From Peribacillus frigoritolerans (GTDB lineage: Bacteria; Bacillota; Bacilli; Bacillales; DSM-1321): a DNA stretch of 64,000 nt. Location of the stretch: NCBI RefSeq assembly GCF_001636405.1, contig NZ_KV440950.1, forward strand, positions 3,638,778-3,702,777, given 5' to 3'. Both the position numbers and the translations under genes were made by a program. Shown here one piece after another: positions 5,336-39,234 of the stretch. The notes below the pieces were generated by a model that did no database searches, had not been told where the DNA came from, and saw only the letters and a program-made list of their open reading frames with translations. Within the stretch, counting starts at the first letter, position 1, and every line of letters begins with the position of its first letter.

Positions 5336-6457
5336 TTATTCAATCCCCGGAAACCATCCTGGAGAGTGGATGATTGCTTGCCATAATGGGTCTGGAATAT
5401 CAAGTTGCTGCTGATTTTCTTTGTTTATTTTGGTCACGATTTCAGCTTCCCTGCCTTGTTCCACTTTTTGTACCCATTCAGGATCAATTATGATTTCACG
5501 CCCTAATGCTATTAACGGAACCCCCGATTGCAATGCTTTGATCGCATCATCTGCTGTATAGATGGAACCAACCCCAATTAATGGAACTTGATCTCCGATA
5601 CGTTCTTTAATGATCTCTATCCGAGGTCGGTCAACGTCGGTTCCCCGTCTTGCTTTCGACCAGAAATCCATTAATGAAACATGAAGATAATCCAGATCCT
5701 TTGTTACAAGCCCATCAATTAATGCAAGTGTATCATCCATGGTGATTCCTGGTGTTTCCGGTTCTTCCGGTGAAAAACGGTAACCTACGATGAACGGATC
5801 CTTGGCATGTTTGGCAACCGCCTTTTTCACTTCATCCACAACCGCTAATGGAAAAGTCAGGCGCTTTTCAAGAGAACCGCCCCACTTGTCTTCACGACGG
5901 TTCGAATGCGGCGAAAAGAATTGCTGTAGCAAGTAACCATTTGCACCGTGAATCTCAACACCGTCAAATCCCGCTTCAATGGCACGTCTGGTGGTTTCAC
6001 CAAAGTCGAATATGATCGATTCTATTTCCTTTTCAGATAGAGGTCGTGGAACTGCTTTCCCTTCACCTTCCGATGGGATGTTGCTTGCACTGACAACATC
6101 ACCATTTACCAATTCGGGTGGAACCTCTCGGCCGCCATGAAAGATCTGGAGAATTGCCTTTGCACCTTTCGCTTTTATCGCTGATGCCAAACGACTTAGA
6201 CTAGGTATCAATTCATCCTGGTCTCCGCCAAATTCCCCGTGAAAACCTTTGCCATTAGCCGTCACGTAAGTACATGCCGTTATAACCATGCCGACCCCGC
6301 TTGACCGACGTTCATAATAGTTAACTTCGGCGTCGGTTACAGTCCCGTCAGGATTAGAAGAGAAATTTGTCATAGGTGCCATCACCAATCGATTTTTCAC
6401 TTCTAATTTCTTTCCTAAATTGAACGATTCAAATAATGGTGTATAGTTAGAATTCAT
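5336..6457 (-). CDS. NADH-dependent flavin oxidoreductase, old yellow enzyme family (YqiG-like)
   Basis: FMN-dependent ene-reductase of 373 residues with a TIM barrel. The N-terminal KNRLVMAPMTNFSSN segment, the FDGVEIHGANGYLLQQFFSP motif near residue 170, the SNRREDKWGGSLEKR block and the C-terminal IALGREIIIDPEW are typical of bacterial OYE homologues such as B. subtilis YqiG. These reduce activated C=C bonds using NAD(P)H and are often induced by electrophiles. It is the last gene of a four-gene minus-strand run behind thioredoxin, an IDEAL protein and an Rrf2 regulator. ATG at 6457 follows GGAGGATTACTAA. Physiological substrate unknown. Confidence 0.9.
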   Translation of the reverse strand: MNSNYTPLFESFNLGKKLEVKNRLVMAPMTNFSSNPDGTVTDAEVNYYERRSSGVGMVITACTYVTANGKGFHGEFGGDQDELIPSLSRLASAIKAKGAKAILQIFHGGREVPPELVNGDVVSASNIPSEGEGKAVPRPLSEKEIESIIFDFGETTRRAIEAGFDGVEIHGANGYLLQQFFSPHSNRREDKWGGSLEKRLTFPLAVVDEVKKAVAKHAKDPFIVGYRFSPEEPETPGITMDDTLALIDGLVTKDLDYLHVSLMDFWSKARRGTDVDRPRIEIIKERIGDQVPLIGVGSIYTADDAIKALQSGVPLIALGREIIIDPEWVQKVEQGREAEIVTKINKENQQQLDIPDPLWQAIIHSPGWFPGIE

Positions 6458-6539
6458 TTAGTAATCCTCCATTTAGTTACCCACCCTGTTGGTTGGTATA
6501 AGTCCTTAATTAAATATCATCCGCGTATTATGATTATAA

Positions 6540-6854
6540 TCATGCATATTTTGCGATTAATGCCGATATGGCTTCTTTTGGCTGGAAACCAATAGCTTGA
6601 TCTACCTTTTCTCCATCTTTGAATAGAATAAGGGCTGGAATTCCCATCACTCCATATTCGCTCGTCGTATCTGAATTTTCATCCACATTAAGTTTAACGA
6701 TCTTAACCTGATTACCCATTTCCTCATCGATTTCATTAAGAACTGGGGCAATCATTTTACACGGACCGCACCATGGGGCCCAAAAGTCAACCAATACTAA
6801 ACCTTCCTTGATTTCACTAGCAAAATTATCATCTGTAACATGTTCTATTGTCAT
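6540..6854 (-). CDS. Thioredoxin
   Basis: 104-residue thioredoxin with the catalytic WCGPC (Cys29 and Cys32) and the cis-Pro loop MGIPAL. It reduces protein disulfides in the cytoplasm. The chosen ATG at 6854 lies eight bases after AGGAGG. An ATG six bases further upstream is too close to the Shine-Dalgarno sequence. It sits between an IDEAL-domain gene and an old yellow enzyme, unlike the housekeeping trxA, which normally lies near uvrC/etfA. It may therefore be a second, stress-linked thioredoxin. That is inference, since the other copy is not in view. Confidence 0.93.
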   Translation of the reverse strand: MTIEHVTDDNFASEIKEGLVLVDFWAPWCGPCKMIAPVLNEIDEEMGNQVKIVKLNVDENSDTTSEYGVMGIPALILFKDGEKVDQAIGFQPKEAISALIAKYA

Positions 6855-6904
6855 GATCATTTCCTCCTTGTATTATCCGAAATATTTATGATCTTTACTC
6901 ACAT

Positions 6905-7288
6905 CTATTTAAAATCAAGTTTTGCGATTCTATTTCCCGGGATTTGAACCTCTGATTTCCGGGCAGTTATTTTCGGGTGGATTTTGATGGATTCCAATTT
7001 ACCGGATAACTCCATAAACCATGTTTCATCTTTAGAAAGTAAAGCTAAATCAATTAAGGCCAAAAGATGAGCTTCGTTACTGATTTCTAGATCCGGCAGT
7101 TTTTCAGTCCATTTACTCGGAATCCAAATCAATTTCCCAACCGCTTTTTCATTGTCGCTTTCAACTACATTCACTTTAACGATTTCTCGATTATCGCTTA
7201 CGGTTTCAACGAAACCATGGATAAGTTCCCCATCTCTTGATTTTCCCTGTACCCAATCCCCATTTTTAAACAGATTGTTTTCAACCAT
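6905..7288 (-). CDS. IDEAL-domain protein
   Basis: 127-residue cytoplasmic protein. The N-terminal half forms a small beta-rich region (GDWVQGKSRDGELIHGFVE). The C-terminal half holds LIDLALLSKDETWFMELS, which fits the IDEAL domain found in Bacillus proteins such as YpiB and some ComK-like proteins, a short helical hairpin of unclear function. Start chosen at ATG 7288 with AGGGG ten bases upstream. A longer frame upstream has no ribosome binding site. It is second in a run Rrf2-IDEAL-Trx-OYE. Its pairing with redox genes is unusual, and an adaptor role is speculation. Confidence 0.7.
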   Translation of the reverse strand: MVENNLFKNGDWVQGKSRDGELIHGFVETVSDNREIVKVNVVESDNEKAVGKLIWIPSKWTEKLPDLEISNEAHLLALIDLALLSKDETWFMELSGKLESIKIHPKITARKSEVQIPGNRIAKLDFK

Positions 7289-7388
7289 TTCCTTAGCACC
7301 CCTTTTATGTTCGTTTATTATTGAAACTATAGTTATTAACTGTATTAATAAAATATACATTTTGTGCAAAGAAAAAACTAAATCAATA

Positions 7389-7808
7389 TCACGGACATTG
7401 TTTAATTTTTTCCAAAAATGTGCTGAGAGTTATATCTTCTAAATATTTTTCAAAATATAATTCAGCTTCATCAAATATTTGATCCATGACTACCTGGGTA
7501 TTTGAAGATATGACACATTTTTTCTCCGGATCACCTGTACACCACTTTGGTTTCAGGGTTCCATGTGAGACCGCTATATAAATATCCGCCAAACTTACCT
7601 CTTCAGGGTTACAGTCTAGAATATAGCCTCCGCCCACACCTTCTTTAGTCTTAACAAATCCCTTTTTTCTTAAGCTGCTCATCATTTTCCGAATCCTAGC
7701 CGAGTTTGTACAAACGTTTTCTGCGATGGACTCACTGCTTGCCATATGATCTGGTAGATAAGCTAAATAGACCAAACTATGCACAGCTATTGTAAAATCA
7801 CTATTCAC
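7389..7808 (-). CDS. Rrf2 family transcriptional regulator
   Basis: 139-residue Rrf2 winged-helix regulator. The N-terminal VNSDFTIAVHSLVYLAYLPD, the recognition region NVCTNSARIRKMMSSLRKKG and the wing GVGGGYIL are characteristic. It has several Cys: one before the recognition helix and two in KPKWCTGDPEKKCVISS, the region where Rrf2 proteins carry cluster ligands or redox thiols. Start chosen as GTG 7808 because AGGAGG lies nine bases upstream. An imperfect palindrome just upstream is a likely autoregulatory operator. It heads the thioredoxin/OYE run, so it probably senses oxidative or electrophile stress. Confidence 0.85.
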   Translation of the reverse strand: MNSDFTIAVHSLVYLAYLPDHMASSESIAENVCTNSARIRKMMSSLRKKGFVKTKEGVGGGYILDCNPEEVSLADIYIAVSHGTLKPKWCTGDPEKKCVISSNTQVVMDQIFDEAELYFEKYLEDITLSTFLEKIKQCP

Positions 7809-7833
7809 TTTACGTATCCTCCTCAAGGAGATT

Positions 7834-7856
7834 ACTGTAATATTAATATTTACAGT
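7834..7856. promoter_or_regulatory. Candidate Rrf2 operator
   Basis: ACTGTAA and TTACAGT form an inverted repeat separated by nine AT bases, directly upstream of the Rrf2 start. Rrf2 proteins typically autoregulate through AT-rich dyads of this size. A related but weaker ACTATAG/CTGTAT pair lies at about 7325-7350, ahead of the IDEAL gene. Confidence 0.5.
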
Positions 7857-8180
7857 TGAAAAAGTCAACTCAAAAACCTCAACTGCTTCCTCCACTATAT
7901 TTGACCGATTTAGTATTGCAGTGAAATCCCCACTTTACGCTTTTAATATTGCCCAAGTTAATGAGCCTTAATGTAAGACTCGGTGATAATATTTAAACCT
8001 TAATTATAGATACACTAAATTGACAACAAATCCATTCTTTCTTCATGAATGTTTTTTTTATTTAAACAAACATTCAAATAAAAAACACCCGATTACTCGG
8101 ATGATTACTTTAATCAATTTTATATTCAATAACTCATTATTGGTTTTGCGCTTAAATAAAAGATTAATAGAAAAGATTTA
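7857..8180. other. Intergenic, one minus-strand terminator
   Basis: AT-rich and gene-free. At 8081-8103 CACCCGA/TCGGATG forms a hairpin followed on the minus strand by six T, a terminator for the small Cys-rich gene at 8181-8312. Nothing else is recognised. Confidence 0.5.
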
Positions 8181-32242: not shown

Positions 32243-33037
32243 TTATCTATTTAATTGTTTCACTTTTACAGGCTTTTTTTCCTTGCTTAATTTGATGATT
32301 TGACCGATAATACTGATGGCAATTTCTTCTGATGTTTCCGAGTCAATTTCCAATCCGATTGGAGAATGGACCTGCTCCAACTGTTCTTGCGTGACCCCTT
32401 CACTTTTTAACTTTTCAAATATGCTTATGACCTTGCGTTTACTGGCTACCATCCCAACATATGCAATCGGAAATTGCAGTGCCGTTTTTAATACAATATC
32501 ATCACAATCTTTTGTAACAATTACCACATATGATTTTTCATTTAGGTTGGCTGCGAGCAAAGCCTTTCCAATATCCTCGTTCACAAAAAGGTTTTTCGCA
32601 TTCGGAAAGCGTTCCTTTGTACAATAACCAACGCGATCATCGACAATGCAATAAGGATATTCGAGGAAATCAGCGAGCTTTGCCAACGCATGGCCTAAAT
32701 GACCGGCCCCAGCCAGAATGAGTTCAGGCCTGCTTGTATAGACTTCAATAAAGACCCGTAACGTACCGCCACAATTCATCTGAATTCCGTCTTTTGCATG
32801 TTTATTCAATTTATATTCAACGATTTTCGATTGTCCATTTTGGATCGCCTTTACACTATCTTCGATCACATAGTGTTCAGCCAAGCCCCCTCCGACAGTC
32901 CCTTCAATGGTACCATCCCGGTAGACAATCATTTTTCCAACATGCCTGGGAGTCGAGCCCTTTGATTCAATAATCATGGCTAAAGCAAAGGTTTCGTTTT
33001 GACGCGTCAGCATGGCCACTTTTTCCATCAGCTGCAT
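32243..33037 (-). CDS. XdhC/CoxI family molybdenum-cofactor chaperone (PucA-like)
   Basis: 264-residue accessory protein needed to mature the molybdenum cofactor of xanthine dehydrogenase. The N-terminal XdhC_CoxI motif is FALAMIIESKGSTPRHVGKM, followed by GTIEGTVGGGLAEHYV. The C-terminal Rossmann domain has LILAGAGHLGHALAKLADFL. Last of five co-directional genes. In B. subtilis the equivalent (pucA) is first. ATG 33037 with GGGGGAGC upstream. Confidence 0.88.
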   Translation of the reverse strand: MQLMEKVAMLTRQNETFALAMIIESKGSTPRHVGKMIVYRDGTIEGTVGGGLAEHYVIEDSVKAIQNGQSKIVEYKLNKHAKDGIQMNCGGTLRVFIEVYTSRPELILAGAGHLGHALAKLADFLEYPYCIVDDRVGYCTKERFPNAKNLFVNEDIGKALLAANLNEKSYVVIVTKDCDDIVLKTALQFPIAYVGMVASKRKVISIFEKLKSEGVTQEQLEQVHSPIGLEIDSETSEEIAISIIGQIIKLSKEKKPVKVKQLNR

Positions 33038-33065
33038 GAAAAGCTCCCCCCCCTATCTTTAAACA

Positions 33066-33932
33066 TTAATTCGGTTGATATTGCTTCATGCTAAGAAAAT
33101 AACGTAAAAGATGTAACGCAACGGTTTTTCTGTAAGCCGCAGTTGAGCGTTGATCGTCGATTGGTCTAATGATCTTATCGAAGGCTGCCACAATTTCAGC
33201 GATGTCTGCATCGGCTAATGGTATCGTTTTTCCAATCAGCTTCTTCTCAATATCAATGGAACGAACCATCGTGGGTCCGACCGCCCCGAAGGCAAATCGA
33301 ATGTCATCGATTCGATCTTTACTTATCCGGACGAAACCCGCAAACGATACTTTGGCAATGGTATCTGCGTTGCGGTTGCCGACTTTCTCGAAAACGACAT
33401 GTGAATCTCCTAATACGAACGGCAGAATAATCTCCGTTACCATTTCATTGTGAAAGCGTTGAACCTGTCGTGGACCCTGAATGAAATCGCTAATCGCAAC
33501 CATGCGATCACCATTTACGGAGCGCAACAGAAGCTTTGCATTGTATACATATAATAAAGGAAGCATGTCACCGGCTGGAGAGGCGTTGCAAATATTACCG
33601 CCTAATGTTCCCCGGTTTCTAATTGCCGGGGCAGCAATTGTTTTAATTGCATTCTTTAAAGCAAACGGAATCAACGGATTTTCAAGTAATTCACTATAGG
33701 TGCAGCAGGCCCCGATGTGGAGATCCTTGTGATGTTGATACACCTGCTTTAATTCGGAAAGATGATTAATAAAAACAATCGGTTTAGGGATTTTTGGAGG
33801 TACCCCCCTTCTACTTTTGTGAAGAACCATAACATCGGTGCCTCCGGCTATGATTGCACAATCTTCTCTATTCAATTGGCTCAAAGTTTCGTCTAAACGC
33901 TCGAAGCGGTACGCTGTTATTTTCTCTATCAT
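33066..33932 (-). CDS. Xanthine dehydrogenase FAD-binding subunit (PucC-like)
   Basis: 288-residue FAD subunit of the molybdenum hydroxylase. The FAD-binding CAIIAGGTDVMVLHKSRRG near residue 28 and the classic TIAAPAIRNRGTLGGNICNA near residue 105 are both present, as is the CO_deh_flav_C end. Overlaps the 2Fe-2S subunit by four bases (ATGA), indicating translational coupling. Confidence 0.92.
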   Translation of the reverse strand: MIEKITAYRFERLDETLSQLNREDCAIIAGGTDVMVLHKSRRGVPPKIPKPIVFINHLSELKQVYQHHKDLHIGACCTYSELLENPLIPFALKNAIKTIAAPAIRNRGTLGGNICNASPAGDMLPLLYVYNAKLLLRSVNGDRMVAISDFIQGPRQVQRFHNEMVTEIILPFVLGDSHVVFEKVGNRNADTIAKVSFAGFVRISKDRIDDIRFAFGAVGPTMVRSIDIEKKLIGKTIPLADADIAEIVAAFDKIIRPIDDQRSTAAYRKTVALHLLRYFLSMKQYQPN

Positions 33933-34393
33933 AAGCCATCACCTTTTTTAGCTGCTAGGTTAATCGCCTCAACAATCATATTGTAGCCCGTACATCGGCA
34001 CAGATTTCCGGAGATGCCCTCACGAATTTCAGCTTCTGAAGGATGAGGATTTTCAGATAACAAAGCTGCACTTGCCATAATCATTCCCGGTATGCAATAG
34101 CCGCATTGCACTCCCCCGGCTATGGAATAGCTTTCATCTAAAATTTTAAATTGTTCCGTTTCAATGATGCCTTCGATCGTTTGAATATCGGCACCAGCAA
34201 TCGAGCCAATTGGAATAAGGCAGCTGTTTTGCAGGAGGTTATTCACAAAAACACTGCAGGCTCCGCACTCCCCTTCACCACAGCCTTCCTTTGTTCCGAT
34301 TAACTCAAACTCATCTCTTAATAAATCTAGTAATCTTGCTGTAGCAGGGGCGTCTGTTTCTACCGTTCTTCCATTTAGTGTGAATTTAATCAA
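33929..34393 (-). CDS. Xanthine dehydrogenase 2Fe-2S subunit (PucE-like)
   Basis: 154-residue electron-transfer subunit with two 2Fe-2S clusters: plant-type Cys set CGEGECGACSVFVNN plus a distal Cys at about 59, and the alpha-helical cluster GGVQCGYCIPGMIM with CRCTGYNMIVEA. The start is TTG 34393, overlapping the TGA of the large subunit. It passes electrons from the Mo centre to FAD. Confidence 0.92.
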   Translation of the reverse strand: MIKFTLNGRTVETDAPATARLLDLLRDEFELIGTKEGCGEGECGACSVFVNNLLQNSCLIPIGSIAGADIQTIEGIIETEQFKILDESYSIAGGVQCGYCIPGMIMASAALLSENPHPSEAEIREGISGNLCRCTGYNMIVEAINLAAKKGDGL

Positions 34394-36549
34394 CCCTCTT
34401 CACCTTCTTTCATCCAAAGACTTTCAATAATGACTTCCGGTGTAATCGGAATTTGCTGAAAAGAAGTGTGCAGGGCATCCTCAATCGCAGCTTGGACTGC
34501 TGGAGCGCCTCCGATTAAAGTCAATTCACCTGCGCCCTTCGCCCCGTATGGACCATCAGCATAGGGATTATCAAAGACCTTGCTTTCAATTGAAACGATA
34601 TCCAATGAAGTCGGCGGTCCATAATCCGATATGCTTTTTTGTTGGATTCTACCTTGTTTTGACGTCATCTTTTCCAGATAACCGTATGCTAGTCCTTGAG
34701 CCAAACCACCGTCAATTTGACCTTTCATAATCCGTTCATCGATGACCTTCCCAACTTCATAATTGCCGTATACTTTTTCTAACTTTAAATTACCGGTTAA
34801 CGTATCAACTTCTACTTCAACGATATTAACGCCCCATGAATAAGCCGGGTAGGCATCTCCAGTGAAGGTTTTCTCGTCCCAAGGAATCATTTCACGGTGA
34901 ACATAGTGCTCAACCACTTCCTGTTCCACCCCTGTTTGCCACTGATTCTTAAGTTTTTTTGCGGCCCGTTCAAGCAATTTTCCGACAATCATCGTCGTCC
35001 TTGAAGCTACGGTCGGACCCGAGTCGGGAACCTCTTTTGTGTCGGGATAAGGGTACAATATATCTTCGAACGGGAGGTTAAGTTCTTTGGCGACAATTTT
35101 ACACAACGTCGTCAAAATACCTTGTCCCATATCAGAGTTTGAGATTTTTAGTGATACCTGGTCGTCCTTTGATTTAACCAGTTTCACCTTTGCTTTAATA
35201 TGATCTCTTTCACCACTGCCAGTAAATCCACAGCCGTGGAGGAACAGCGAAGTTCCTATGCCTTTTTTATAGCGCTGATTTTGTTGATTTAAGCGCTGAA
35301 AGTCTTCTTTTTTCTTTTTGTATTCTGACACGTTGAGTACGTCCTCAATCATTTCTTCCACTAATATCGGGTCGCGGAATTTACCTTTGGTGATGGTGGG
35401 GTCTCCTTGTTTGACGAGGTATTTTCGTTTATATGCAAGCGGGTCGATTTTTGCCAGTTTACTAAGATGTCCTATATGACTTTCGATTCCAGCAAAGCTT
35501 TGAGGAGCACCAAAGCCTCTGAAGGCGCCGTTCGGAACGGTATTGGTTTTTAAGACATAGCCTTTTGCATGAAAATGCGGAATTTTATAAACACCAGCAC
35601 TGTTTAATAATGCGCGCTGCAGCACGACAGAGCTCAATCCAACATTTGCCCCTCCATCGAGAAAGATGTCAACATACATGCTTAGAATATTTCCTTCCTT
35701 ATCAAGGGCCGTCCGATATTTGAGTTTGGCCGGATGCCTTTTCGTCGTTACCAGCATATCCTCAGAACGGTCGAACACGAGCATTACCGATTTTTTTACT
35801 GCTCTTGCGGCAACGGCTACGTGACAAGCCATCATAGAAGGATAATCTTCTTTGCCGCCAAAACCTCCGCCGGTAGGACTTTGAACAACCCTGACTTCAT
35901 CGTCACCACAGGCTAATGCGCTTAGTAATGCATTTTTTATATAATAAAGACATTGCATCGATCCCTGGACGACAATTTCATCATCCTTATAAACGGCGAG
36001 CATTCCTTGCGGCTCAAGATAGACATGCTCCTGATAACCCGTATCATATTCTTCTTCGATGATTTGATGGGCCCCTTGCTCGATAGCTGAAATGTTTTCT
36101 AAGCTTTCCCCAAATTCATAGCTTGCCAAAACTAAGGATACTGATTTTTGCTTGATCGCTTCGTCCAATGTATAGATAGCCTGATGTTCTTCAAATTCAA
36201 CCTTCACTTCATTTAACAAACTGTACAGGATATCCAGGTCTTTGCCCGTGAGCATGAGAATTGGCTCACCAATATAATTGACCCACTCATTGGCAAAAAT
36301 GGGCTGATCTTCTTTGATAATCTTGACATAATTCGGTCCGGGGATATGCTCTGCTCCAACAGCTTCATACCCATCCGGAAGATTGGGTAATTGAATGGAT
36401 ATGATTTTTCCATAAGCAATTGGCGATCGATACAAAACACCATATACCATATTTTCCACTTTTACGTCACTAATATAGGGCAGCTGGCCCGATACTTTAC
36501 CTTTATGGTCCTTTTTGGGCACTGAGGTGCTTATGTCTTTGAGATTCAT
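34390..36549 (-). CDS. Xanthine dehydrogenase molybdenum-binding subunit (PucD-like)
   Basis: 719-residue catalytic subunit oxidising hypoxanthine/xanthine to urate. Motifs: SPTGGGFGGKEDYPSMMACH near 225-245, NGAFRGFGAPQSFAG near 340, DMGQGILTTLCKIVAKEL, and the catalytic Glu in YGAKGAGELTLIGG near 677. Length is shorter than eukaryotic enzymes but normal for the three-subunit bacterial type. The puc-like surroundings favour purine use. Aldehyde oxidase-like activity cannot be excluded. Confidence 0.92.
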   Translation of the reverse strand: MNLKDISTSVPKKDHKGKVSGQLPYISDVKVENMVYGVLYRSPIAYGKIISIQLPNLPDGYEAVGAEHIPGPNYVKIIKEDQPIFANEWVNYIGEPILMLTGKDLDILYSLLNEVKVEFEEHQAIYTLDEAIKQKSVSLVLASYEFGESLENISAIEQGAHQIIEEEYDTGYQEHVYLEPQGMLAVYKDDEIVVQGSMQCLYYIKNALLSALACGDDEVRVVQSPTGGGFGGKEDYPSMMACHVAVAARAVKKSVMLVFDRSEDMLVTTKRHPAKLKYRTALDKEGNILSMYVDIFLDGGANVGLSSVVLQRALLNSAGVYKIPHFHAKGYVLKTNTVPNGAFRGFGAPQSFAGIESHIGHLSKLAKIDPLAYKRKYLVKQGDPTITKGKFRDPILVEEMIEDVLNVSEYKKKKEDFQRLNQQNQRYKKGIGTSLFLHGCGFTGSGERDHIKAKVKLVKSKDDQVSLKISNSDMGQGILTTLCKIVAKELNLPFEDILYPYPDTKEVPDSGPTVASRTTMIVGKLLERAAKKLKNQWQTGVEQEVVEHYVHREMIPWDEKTFTGDAYPAYSWGVNIVEVEVDTLTGNLKLEKVYGNYEVGKVIDERIMKGQIDGGLAQGLAYGYLEKMTSKQGRIQQKSISDYGPPTSLDIVSIESKVFDNPYADGPYGAKGAGELTLIGGAPAVQAAIEDALHTSFQQIPITPEVIIESLWMKEGEEG

Positions 36550-36684
36550 TGCAACAACACCCTTCGACTCATTTTTTTAATTGGACATATTCTGAATAGA
36601 AACCTCTTCCAATGATTTTATCAATGAGAATGATCTTTTATGATTCATTTCTATTCAAGATTTTCGTAGTTTTTATTTTTATTT

Positions 36685-37284
36685 TTACTTCGAGAAATTT
36701 AAAGCATTATCATAATCAATGGCTTTTTGGTAATCCTCCGGTGTATCAACATCCATTAATACTCCCGCATCATCTACATTCATGTATTGCTTTTCGTAAC
36801 CGCCCAGGACCACACGCAAATTACCTTCTGGATTGGTTTCAAGAATTTTCTGTTTCACTACGCTTGATAATTTAATGGGATGGCCGCCTTTATAGTCAAA
36901 GCTGGGAATAACCACGTTTCCTTTGTGTTTTGCTAGTAGCTGAACAGTCTCTTTTTTTACAAGCGGACAATCGCCGGGTGTTATAAAGAAGGTTGGGGCA
37001 TTCACTTCGTTGCAGCCCTTTTGAATGGAATGAAACATTCCCTGGTTAAAGTTTTCATTATAAACAAACTTGATCTGAAATGAATAGGCGTTTTCACTGA
37101 TGATTTTGACAATTTCTTCTTGGATGATTTCCGCTTGAAATCCAGCTACGACGATGACCCTGCTGCATAAACCTTCAAATTTAGAGATCGTTTGCTCCAA
37201 CACGCTCATTTGCCCCATCGGCAAAGTCATTTTAAATGCATTCGCTCGGCTGGAATATCCAGCAGCTAGGACGATTGCTTCCAT
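36685..37284 (-). CDS. MobA-like molybdenum-cofactor nucleotidyltransferase (PucB/MocA-like)
   Basis: 199-residue NTP transferase. The N-terminal AIVLAAGYSSRANAFKMTLP is the nucleotide-binding loop of the MocA/MobA family. FITPGDCPLV and VDTPEDYQKA are further conserved blocks. It adds CMP to molybdopterin for hydroxylases. In B. subtilis pucB sits in the same operon. ATG 37284 chosen after AAGGTG. A GTG nine bases upstream is the alternative. First gene of the operon here, 135 bases before the large subunit. Confidence 0.87.
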   Translation of the reverse strand: MEAIVLAAGYSSRANAFKMTLPMGQMSVLEQTISKFEGLCSRVIVVAGFQAEIIQEEIVKIISENAYSFQIKFVYNENFNQGMFHSIQKGCNEVNAPTFFITPGDCPLVKKETVQLLAKHKGNVVIPSFDYKGGHPIKLSSVVKQKILETNPEGNLRVVLGGYEKQYMNVDDAGVLMDVDTPEDYQKAIDYDNALNFSK

Positions 37285-37456
37285 ATTTGTCACCTTCTAC
37301 CTATCATTTTTCTTAAATCTCGTAATAAAATCACAAGCTGAGGAAGGATTTGCTGTATGGACTATTAAGAGAACATAGTGTTTTTTCTTTATATGCGTAA
37401 AAGCCTCATAATATTACTTACGGTACGCTTCACCTTAGTTATTTAAGAGGCAAAAA

Positions 37457-37488: not shown

Positions 37489-37933
37489 TAGTTTATTCAA
37501 AATAAGAATTAGAATCATTTCACCCCTAAATTTTCACAGCATTGAAATTACTTTAGGTTTAAACTATGTTGCCACATACTATATGTGTAGAGTGCAGACG
37601 GTAGGAAATATACAAAATAAAGATGAGATGCAGTGGTGCATCTTTGCTATCTATTTTACTTGTTCATGAATTAAAGGTATACAGCACGGTAATTTAACTC
37701 AGTTAGTTTCACCTTTTAAAACTCCTAAGATATCATTATCTTTAACCTTATTAGGTTACACACTGTAAATCATTCTAATGAGATGGTCGTGGCCATCTTC
37801 ATGAATACGTATTTGTTTATAATAATGTATTAATATTGATTTAATAGTGGAATTACCTTAGAATTAAAACAAAGATTACCTTTTTAGGATATCGAACCCA
37901 CTCACCTTTAGCAAAGAATGGAAGGGTTCAATG

Positions 37934-37990
37934 AAAGGCATTGTCGGTAGAAGTCTCCTTTACGGGACTGCTACCGACAATGCCTTTTTC
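37934..37990 (+). terminator. Strong two-level hairpin upstream of the orphan ftsZ
   Basis: AAAGGCATTGTCGGTAG pairs exactly with CTACCGACAATGCCTTT, enclosing a second AGTCTCC/GGGACT stem, and ends in TTTTTC. It lies about 120 bases before the ftsZ start with no gene ahead of it, so it could be a leader attenuator or insulate ftsZ from upstream transcription. Confidence 0.65.
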
Positions 37991-38110
37991 TTTAACTAAA
38001 TCTAAATATAAGAAAGACAAAACATTTCTAATAAAAGAATGAGTGTTGTTTCCGCTATTTATTTGAATAATTTGAAATAAGGTAATTTCAATGACTAGGA
38101 GGTCCTATAA

Positions 38111-39133
38111 ATGGAGTTTGTTACAAGTGTAAACTCATCAGTCAACATTAAAGTAATTGGTATTGGCGGCGGAGGAAATAACGCCGTTAACCGTATGATC
38201 GAACATGGAGTTAAATGTGTAGAATTTATAGCTGTTAATACAGATGCACAAGCTCTTAATTTATCAAAAGCAGAGATCAAGATACAAATCGGTGCAACAT
38301 TGACAAAAGGTTTAGGATCAGGGGCAAATCCAGAGGTAGGTAAACAAGCAGTTAAAGAAAGCAAAGAGCAGATCCAAGAAGCATTAAAAGGTACAGACAT
38401 GGTACTCATTACAGCCGGAATGGGCGGCGGTATAGGAACGGGTGCTGCCCCTGTCATTGCTCAAATCGCCCGTGAGCTTGACATACTAACCATTGGCGTT
38501 GTAACACTTCCGTTTGCGTTTGAGGGCAATAAGCGTGCAACACAAGCAGCAGGAGGGATCTCCTTAATGAAGAAAGCAGTGGACACATTAATTGTTATTC
38601 CAAACGATCGCTTATTGGAGATTTTACATAAAAATACACCAATGCTTGAAGCATTTCTTGAAGCGGATAATGTTATACGCCAAAGTATCCAAGGTATATC
38701 GGATTTAATTGCTGTACCAGGTTTAATCAACATTGATTTTGCAGACGTGAAAACAATCATGTCCAATAAAGGGTCTGCCTTAATAGGCATTGGCAGAGCA
38801 ACAGGTAAACATCGCGCTGCGGAAGCTGCAAAGAAAGCCATTTCGAGTCCGTTACTTAACACTTCCATCGACGGAGCCCAAGGTGTGCTAATGAAACTCA
38901 CAGGCGCCAATATAAGTCTATATGAAGTACAAGAGGCAGCAAATATTGTTACTTCCGAGGCCGACTCAGAGTTAAATATGATTTTCGGTTCTGTTATTAA
39001 TGAAAACTTAAAAGATGAAATTATAGTAATCATCATTGCTACTGGCTTGAATGATCAGGAGGTTCCATCATTGAAAAGGCCTGCGCGCCCTTCATCAACA
39101 GAAATGGAAAAACGGCTGTCACACGAGTTTTGA
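38111..39133 (+). CDS. Second, divergent FtsZ (tubulin-like GTPase) with altered signature motif
   Basis: 340-residue FtsZ-family protein. The GTP-binding N-domain is clear ([51 protein letters not shown]), as is the T7 synergy loop [18 protein letters not shown]. The tubulin signature reads GGGIGTG: Ile108 replaces the nearly invariant Thr, which should weaken nucleotide binding or hydrolysis. The C-terminus ends [21 protein letters not shown], with no basic peptide binding FtsA/SepF/EzrA. It stands alone, away from any ftsA or mur genes, so it is a paralogue of the housekeeping gene. AGGAGG precedes ATG 38111. Confidence 0.93.
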
Positions 39134-39234
39134 TGCAAAATACGATTATTATAATTCACCAAGACCACAATTAGTGAAAGTCAAATAGAAGGTATGGAGC
39201 AAGAATTATCTGAAAGTCCAGAAGAAGGGACATA
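39134..39234 (+). pseudogene. Out-of-frame continuation of the ftsZ tail
   Basis: Beyond the stop two other frames look coding: [14 protein letters not shown] directly after a TTTT run, then SESQIEGMEQELSESPEEGT ending at a TAA near 39234. Joined, they would extend FtsZ by about 33 residues into an acidic tail. Still no canonical FtsZ C-terminal peptide appears. Either decay or sequencing error at the TTTT run. Confidence 0.5.

Follow-up and report, generated by a model that had tools for sequence, protein, structure and literature searches.

Second FtsZs without a C-terminal tail are known from magnetotactic bacteria (FtsZm) and from rhizobia (FtsZ2). The Bacilli represent the standard Gram-positive model of cell division and are usually treated as organisms with one FtsZ. 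According to a title cited in PMC7017999 FtsZm likely interacts with its generic homologue, and PMC4414408 mentions two ftsZ homologues in S. meliloti. We found no description of a second chromosomal FtsZ in the Bacillaceae in the openly accessible literature, which covers subscription journals poorly and is therefore weak evidence of absence.

Here we describe such a gene, ftsZ2, in a stretch of 64,000 nucleotides (the window, to which all positions refer unless a genome is named). Judged by its sequence it is a true FtsZ paralogue without the C-terminal peptide (CTP), located outside the division cluster. The features of the locus are:

37802..38013, minus strand: decayed remnant of an orfB transposase gene of the IS3 family (IS150-like), running antisense to ftsZ2 and present in all ten members of its clade
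37894..37929, plus strand: first leader stem-loop (fold, pair conservation)
37933..37988, plus strand: second stem of 24 pairs followed by a T run, a terminator-like hairpin just 5' of ftsZ2 (fold, pair conservation)
38097..38102, plus strand: ribosome-binding site AGGAGG (sequence)
38111..39133, plus strand: ftsZ2, tailless FtsZ paralogue of 340 aa (open reading frame; PF00091, PF12327, TIGR00065; structure model)
38432..38434, plus strand: codon 108, coding for Ile within the tubulin signature GGG(I)GTG (housekeeping position T109)
38729..38746, plus strand: T7-loop NxDxxD (N207, D209, D212), intact (invariant columns of the 22-row alignment A1)
39059..39130, plus strand: disordered stub of 24 residues replacing linker and CTP (pLDDT below 50; no CTP downstream)

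The gene, its setting and its leader

The gene starts with an ATG closely preceded by AGGAGG. An earlier, sequence-only reading had placed it at 38111-39234: the start is correct, but the end lies 101 bases beyond the stop. The same reading claimed complete FtsZ GTPase and T7-loop domains, and this is borne out: the protein scores 424 bits against the TIGR00065 ftsZ model (cut-off 295), 170 bits against Pfam Tubulin (PF00091) and 97 bits against FtsZ_C (PF12327), and N207, D209 and D212 are invariant across the 22 rows of A1. An AlphaFold model (mean pLDDT 80.6; residues 317-340 below 50) finds its best PDB match in B. subtilis FtsZ 2rhj, with a TM-score of 0.96 (target length) and 78% identity. 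The pattern GGGTGT[GA] is absent: the signature reads GGGIGTG with ATA as codon 108, just as had been noticed. Also the ending is as described: the C-terminus reads ...EKRLSHEF, 24 residues beyond the globular domain, and a CTP (of the type DIPTFLRNR) is absent from the protein and from all frames of the 330 bases after the stop. The out-of-frame, coding-like DNA that had been pointed out downstream is therefore not a hidden CTP; among the nine clade relatives, the DNA 3' of the stop is shared with G001 only.

The genome holding the window (G000, 5.46 Mb in 2 contigs) gives two Pfam Tubulin matches: ftsZ2 and a CTP-bearing housekeeping ftsZ (G000:C1:4104388-4105377, minus strand; LDIPTFLRNRNRRR). 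The latter lies in the order ftsA-ftsZ-spoIIGA-sigE, and neither ftsA nor spoIIGA nor a close sigE match occurs in the window. All genes flanking ftsZ2 are on the opposite strand, with xanthine-dehydrogenase-like and MobA-like genes upstream and an aldo/keto reductase gene downstream. Both the second ftsZ in the same genome and the solitary position of ftsZ2, as suspected earlier, are thereby confirmed. The upstream xanthine-dehydrogenase-like cluster, including the MobA-like nucleotidyltransferase gene, spans 32243-37293 on the minus strand.

The closest neighbours of ftsZ2 vary by genome, and nucleobase-related genes are found near many copies: a partial Xan_ur_permease (G021), PucR (G020) and amidohydrolases (Peribacillus huizhouensis, Bacillus sp. 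MUM 116). No partner gene is conserved across the FtsZ2 lineages, conservation being seen only within close species. Purine catabolism was considered as a partner pathway and rejected, because these neighbours look like a shared, shuffled island, and we read the recurring neighbours as such. DUF4822, two-component, ankyrin-repeat and amidohydrolase genes recur beside ftsZ2 across several genera in changing order (L041, L043, L061, L065, L066, L067). PADLOC matched 0 of 3 proteins.

A leader of about 210 bp is common to all ten clade members, while the sequence beyond leader and gene differs in most pairs, though not in close ones (window/G001, G021/G020 and P. huizhouensis/C. depressus, for example). 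The window leader resembles an insertion sequence (IS) of G013 (72% identity over 217 columns, E 3e-26). Each of the ten leaders matches this IS with an E-value of about 1e-17 or better, Domibacillus giving the best match (81% over 242 columns). G013 contains three copies (L236-L238; 99-100% identical) of this 1.3-kb element, the orfB of which is the parent type of the leader; it is presumably IS3/IS150, a name that rests on the OrfA/OrfB layout and motifs. The leader corresponds to the C-terminal part of orfB in decayed form. The 3'-terminal 85 bases or so of the element are missing, and for this reason we rejected mobilisation of ftsZ2 by the fragment's own ends.

The sequence-only reading had noted a strong hairpin upstream of ftsZ2 and thought conditional expression possible. 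The hairpin is real, as positions 37880-38000 fold at -48.7 kcal/mol (z -7.75 against 200 shuffles); being a decayed IS3 fragment, it does not by itself speak for conditional expression. A simple terminator scan did not list the hairpin. The ten leaders fold at z -4.3 to -9.4, against -3.0 at best for the IS (six overlapping windows; mononucleotide shuffles). Across the ten leaders 93.9% of the pair cells are kept, the two stems together show five double-changed pairs (11 of 500 shuffles as high), and the covariation score is matched by 0 of 500 shuffles. By these comparisons the leader is a decayed IS3 transposase fragment turned into a terminator-like stem, which probably insulates the gene from read-through. 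A riboswitch was rejected since the similarity to IS3 orfB accounts for the origin of the leader, and no Rfam family came near its gathering score. Promoter-like matches occur no more often than shuffled sequence would give (7 against 9.2), and we therefore propose no promoter.

Distribution, phylogeny and tail loss

We searched 397 genomes of the order, 75 of which gave two or more matches; 70 of these, all outside the own family, were rescanned. A second long FtsZ match is present in 44 of the 70 (in G376 in two pieces), the others having weak or fragmentary second matches only. Together with G000, G001, G005 and G021 this amounts to a second FtsZ in at least 48 of the 397 genomes, about one in eight, which is a lower bound because at most five first-look candidates were scored per genome and rescans were made only where two matches existed. 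Sequences were fetched for 38 of the 44 genomes (G064, G287, G318, G347, G367 and G395 were left out). In the class outside the order, no second FtsZ was found among 112 genomes with an f20 copy as query; four gave second hits, all of them weak (51 bits or less).

Within the own genus all 36 genomes give at least one match, and four (G000, G001, G020 and G021) have an intact ftsZ2 of the simplex type, to which the window copy belongs. G009 (P. huizhouensis) carries a sister-type ftsZ2 as well as a decayed simplex-type copy, and CTP-bearing second FtsZs occur in G005 (two) and G008 (one). At the site of the window copy, G015 and G029 share an internal deletion (window position 38094 joined to 39021) that spares the leader and the 3' end, and G007 retains a 3' remnant. 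The two deletion scars are loci L265 and L266, both in simplex-type genomes. Other genomes hold more: Cytobacillus depressus and Neobacillus rhizophilus have three FtsZs each and Bacillus sp. MUM 116 (G428) has four distinct FtsZ genes. Pontibacillus, Priestia megaterium and Rossellomorea have large plasmids (H13, H16, H5) with FtsZ-like genes that show 47-58% identity to the window copy and are perhaps another kind of extra FtsZ.

The tree was built from 54 second FtsZs, 41 housekeeping FtsZs and 34 further rows for rooting, three of them from the own order (L280, L284, L285). Housekeeping rows (36 to 41) were hand-picked from those fetched; trees and residue counts exclude identical proteins, the fragment L203 and the duplicate loci L060 and L064. 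In this quick tree a single branch (SH-aLRT 98) sets all 54 second FtsZs apart; the tree has no bootstrap, its ten outgroup rows are not set apart by any one branch, and five rows are long-branched. The branch adjoins the housekeeping FtsZs of Priestia and FJAT-14578. On this grouping the second FtsZs would be one family, here named Bacillaceae FtsZ2, with the window copy as a member.

The 27 rows with short forms (345 aa or less) require two changes on the tree. A single clade of all short forms is disfavoured (p-AU 0.0154, for a group named after an earlier tree had been seen), and on the tree they need at least two origins. The first group consists of the window clade and the f44 copies (mostly Priestia-type), with 317-342 aa. 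The second, f20/f17/f4, has 317-328 aa, stops within a few residues of IATGF and nests among long-linker copies, mostly CTP-bearing. Four long copies of f23 (L171, L172, L191 and L206; about 6100-8130) bear a CTP, measure 464-466 aa and have linkers built of repeats such as YNEQQDYGRY.

The window clade (SH-aLRT 99) has ten members: the copies of the window, G001, G021, G020, P. huizhouensis, C. depressus, N. rhizophilus, MUM 116, Metabacillus fastidiosus and Domibacillus aminovorans. The CTP is missing from all ten, so of the conservation asked about in the sequence-only reading the short tail holds for the clade, whereas the Ile holds for the simplex type only. The endings differ: three simplex copies stop at the same S.EF, that of G001 has a frameshift at about residue 317, N. 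rhizophilus has an in-frame stop within the linker, and Domibacillus stops after PQPQA. Soon after ATGF, the copies of P. huizhouensis, C. depressus and MUM 116 run into sequence with no relation to the linker, and so, with different sequence, does that of M. fastidiosus. Given these differences, the tail was apparently lost several times separately, in each case past the globular domain.

Selection, spread and altered residues

Among the four simplex copies dN/dS of ftsZ2 is 0.14-0.29 at a dS of 0.10-0.19, similar to that of the housekeeping ftsZ in the same four genomes (0.06-0.18, with a dN of 0). For the window clade overall dN/dS is 0.14-0.31. Comparison of the window copy with the nine others gives dN below dS in each case (Fisher p 1.7e-7 to 5.2e-15), and codons 1-318 of the ten intact copies contain 0 nonsense changes against about 44 expected if neutral, a count conditioned on intact copies with the broken ones outside it. 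By these measures the window clade is under purifying selection. The paralogue is thus not merely decaying, in line with the earlier proposal, even though broken copies exist in sister genomes (deletion scars and one point-decayed copy). Among other short forms, five f20 copies show a dN/dS of 0.011-0.022 and four Priestia-type copies a dN of at most 0.0014.

Between genera the dS of ftsZ2 is 0.05-0.53 (mostly 0.30-0.53), whereas that of the housekeeping ftsZ is 1.45-3.2 or saturated (the P. huizhouensis gene is outside this table). The lowest ftsZ2 value, 0.05, is that of P. huizhouensis versus C. depressus, the rest of that sister group showing 0.16-0.22, and these two genomes have a common block of 4.5 kb with 97.6% identity. 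The low dS relative to the housekeeping gene, together with the shared block, provides strong evidence from sequence comparison that the window clade has spread horizontally between genera. No window-clade copy was seen on plasmids (0 of 115 matching records reach 80% identity) or phages (0 of 25); the top matches, Listeria and Bacillus records at 74-76%, look like ordinary ftsZ. None of the viral contigs encodes a relative, and no clean insertion boundary or target-site duplication is readable at the empty or scarred sites.

Ile at the position of T109 is found in 4 of 90 aligned FtsZs, all of the simplex type, with Thr in the other 86; the decayed copy of P. huizhouensis has Ile as well. No copy outside the simplex type in this alignment has Ile in place of the signature Thr. 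Among 21 positions that we take to be nucleotide contacts, the window clade shows no change that reaches 90% of its members, and in the simplex copies T109 alone reaches that level. Of the 262 positions invariant in housekeeping FtsZs, 24 differ in nine or more of the ten window-clade members. Using the interdomain cleft positions as printed in PMC8456036, 5 of 19 housekeeping-invariant cleft positions (193, 209, 226, 263, 310) are changed in at least nine of ten copies. The enrichment (one-sided Fisher p 0.02 for the window clade, 0.051 for the simplex four alone) is a guide only, as the cleft set was chosen after the substitutions had been seen. Cleft changes number 0 in f44, f1-long, f47 and f23 and 1 in f20/17/4, with nine further long copies outside this grouping. 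The window clade has, by this count, an altered FtsZ interdomain cleft.

Possible roles and comparison with known systems

Co-assembly with, or poisoning of, the main FtsZ would be the most likely mechanism of FtsZ2. The more specific proposal, an unanchored subunit assembling together with FtsZ and slowing or modulating it, we consider about evenly balanced between true and false. FtsZ2 has lost linker and CTP, while its globular fold, its GTP site and its catalytic T7 loop are preserved. Its conserved interface chemistry suggests co-assembly with the host FtsZ, whose filaments it would join via the head-to-tail interface. Lacking the CTP, it would be unable to bind the membrane anchors FtsA and SepF, and so would dilute anchoring and alter filament turnover. 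For copies of the simplex type, the Ile in the signature is expected to reduce GTP hydrolysis as well and to leave such parts of a filament more static, which would act as a brake on Z-ring remodelling.

Published biochemistry points in this direction. B. subtilis FtsZ without CTP shows 88% GTPase activity and a critical concentration of 0.8 versus 1.6 uM and does not support division, and the E. coli signature alleles G105S and T108A have markedly reduced GTPase activity (PMC3618327). E. coli T108A has almost no GTPase activity, yet rings form, without turnover (PMC5979038). A tailless FtsZ with an Ile signature should therefore polymerise, unanchored and with slow turnover. The mutants printed in the accessible literature are T108A, T111A and T111R, and a measurement of Ile at this position was not found there. 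Co-polymerisation, loss of anchoring, reduced GTPase activity and expression timing of FtsZ2 are what we infer. Against the proposed role stands a dN/dS far above that of the housekeeping ftsZ, with an intact simplex-type copy in only four of the 36 genus genomes besides scars and a decayed copy. Since other FtsZ2 branches keep the CTP, one mechanism may not serve the whole family.

FtsZ2 might alternatively form its own cytoplasmic polymer for another task (e.g. sporulation or cell shape), unmixed with FtsZ. The very strong constraint on some short forms (f20, Priestia-type) and the 24 altered housekeeping-invariant positions would fit such a filament, but the invariant T7 residues, nucleotide contacts kept save T109, an identity to housekeeping FtsZ that is still about 75% and the absence of a family-wide partner gene make it unlikely. 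We give slightly less credence to a duplicate that is decaying and functionless in this strain: relaxed dN/dS relative to the housekeeping gene, the G001 frameshift, the scars in G015 and G029, the decayed copy in G009 and the changed signature residue agree with it, whereas the excess of dS over dN and the lack of nonsense changes in the intact copies (broken ones being uncounted) do not. The FtsZ interdomain cleft may serve the polymerisation switch. That a mobile FtsZ2 soaks up or ignores FtsZ-targeting division inhibitors, which bind in the cleft altered here at five of 19 positions (0-1 in other groups), is improbable, given a modest, post hoc enrichment that weakens in the simplex four, a cleft that may equally serve this switch, and a protein that without CTP could not stand in for FtsZ.

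Returning to co-assembly, a broader and rather speculative picture, which we would not expect to hold in full, is that the mobile tailless FtsZ is an exchangeable division part. Carrying its insulating hairpin along, it would pass from one genus to another and join the filaments of the host's FtsZ as a subunit with slow turnover and no anchor; its cleft being remodelled, it would either restrain division under some condition or buffer the cell against cleft inhibitors.

At least two lineages truncate FtsZ soon after the globular domain and are still under selection, and thus offer natural experiments on the roles of the C-terminal tail and the GTPase. The NCBI equivalog TIGR00065 labels the window copy and 6 of 6 others as plain FtsZ, so that second copies are easy to overlook. 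Annotation, marker-gene phylogeny and work on FtsZ inhibitors in these genera should reckon with second FtsZs.

Housekeeping Bacillus FtsZ (TIGR00065; 2rhj) has the same fold and T7 motif as the window FtsZ2 at about 75-78% identity; compared to it, FtsZ2 lacks linker and CTP, is not in the division cluster, has Ile at T109 and has an altered interdomain cleft. The long-linker FtsZ2 of f23/f47 lie on the same FtsZ2 side of the tree, but measure 388-466 aa; in most of them the linker is long and rich in repeats and the CTP is of the type IPAFLRNR or IPSFLRKR. The distant tubulin-like proteins, TubZ among them, belong to the same tubulin superfamily and are not close kin of ftsZ2; weak second hits of about 20-35% identity occur in some genomes. 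FtsZm and rhizobial FtsZ2, likened here by description only, are second FtsZs beside a generic one, as in the present case; unlike the window FtsZ2 they are alphaproteobacterial, and FtsZm lies among magnetosome genes.
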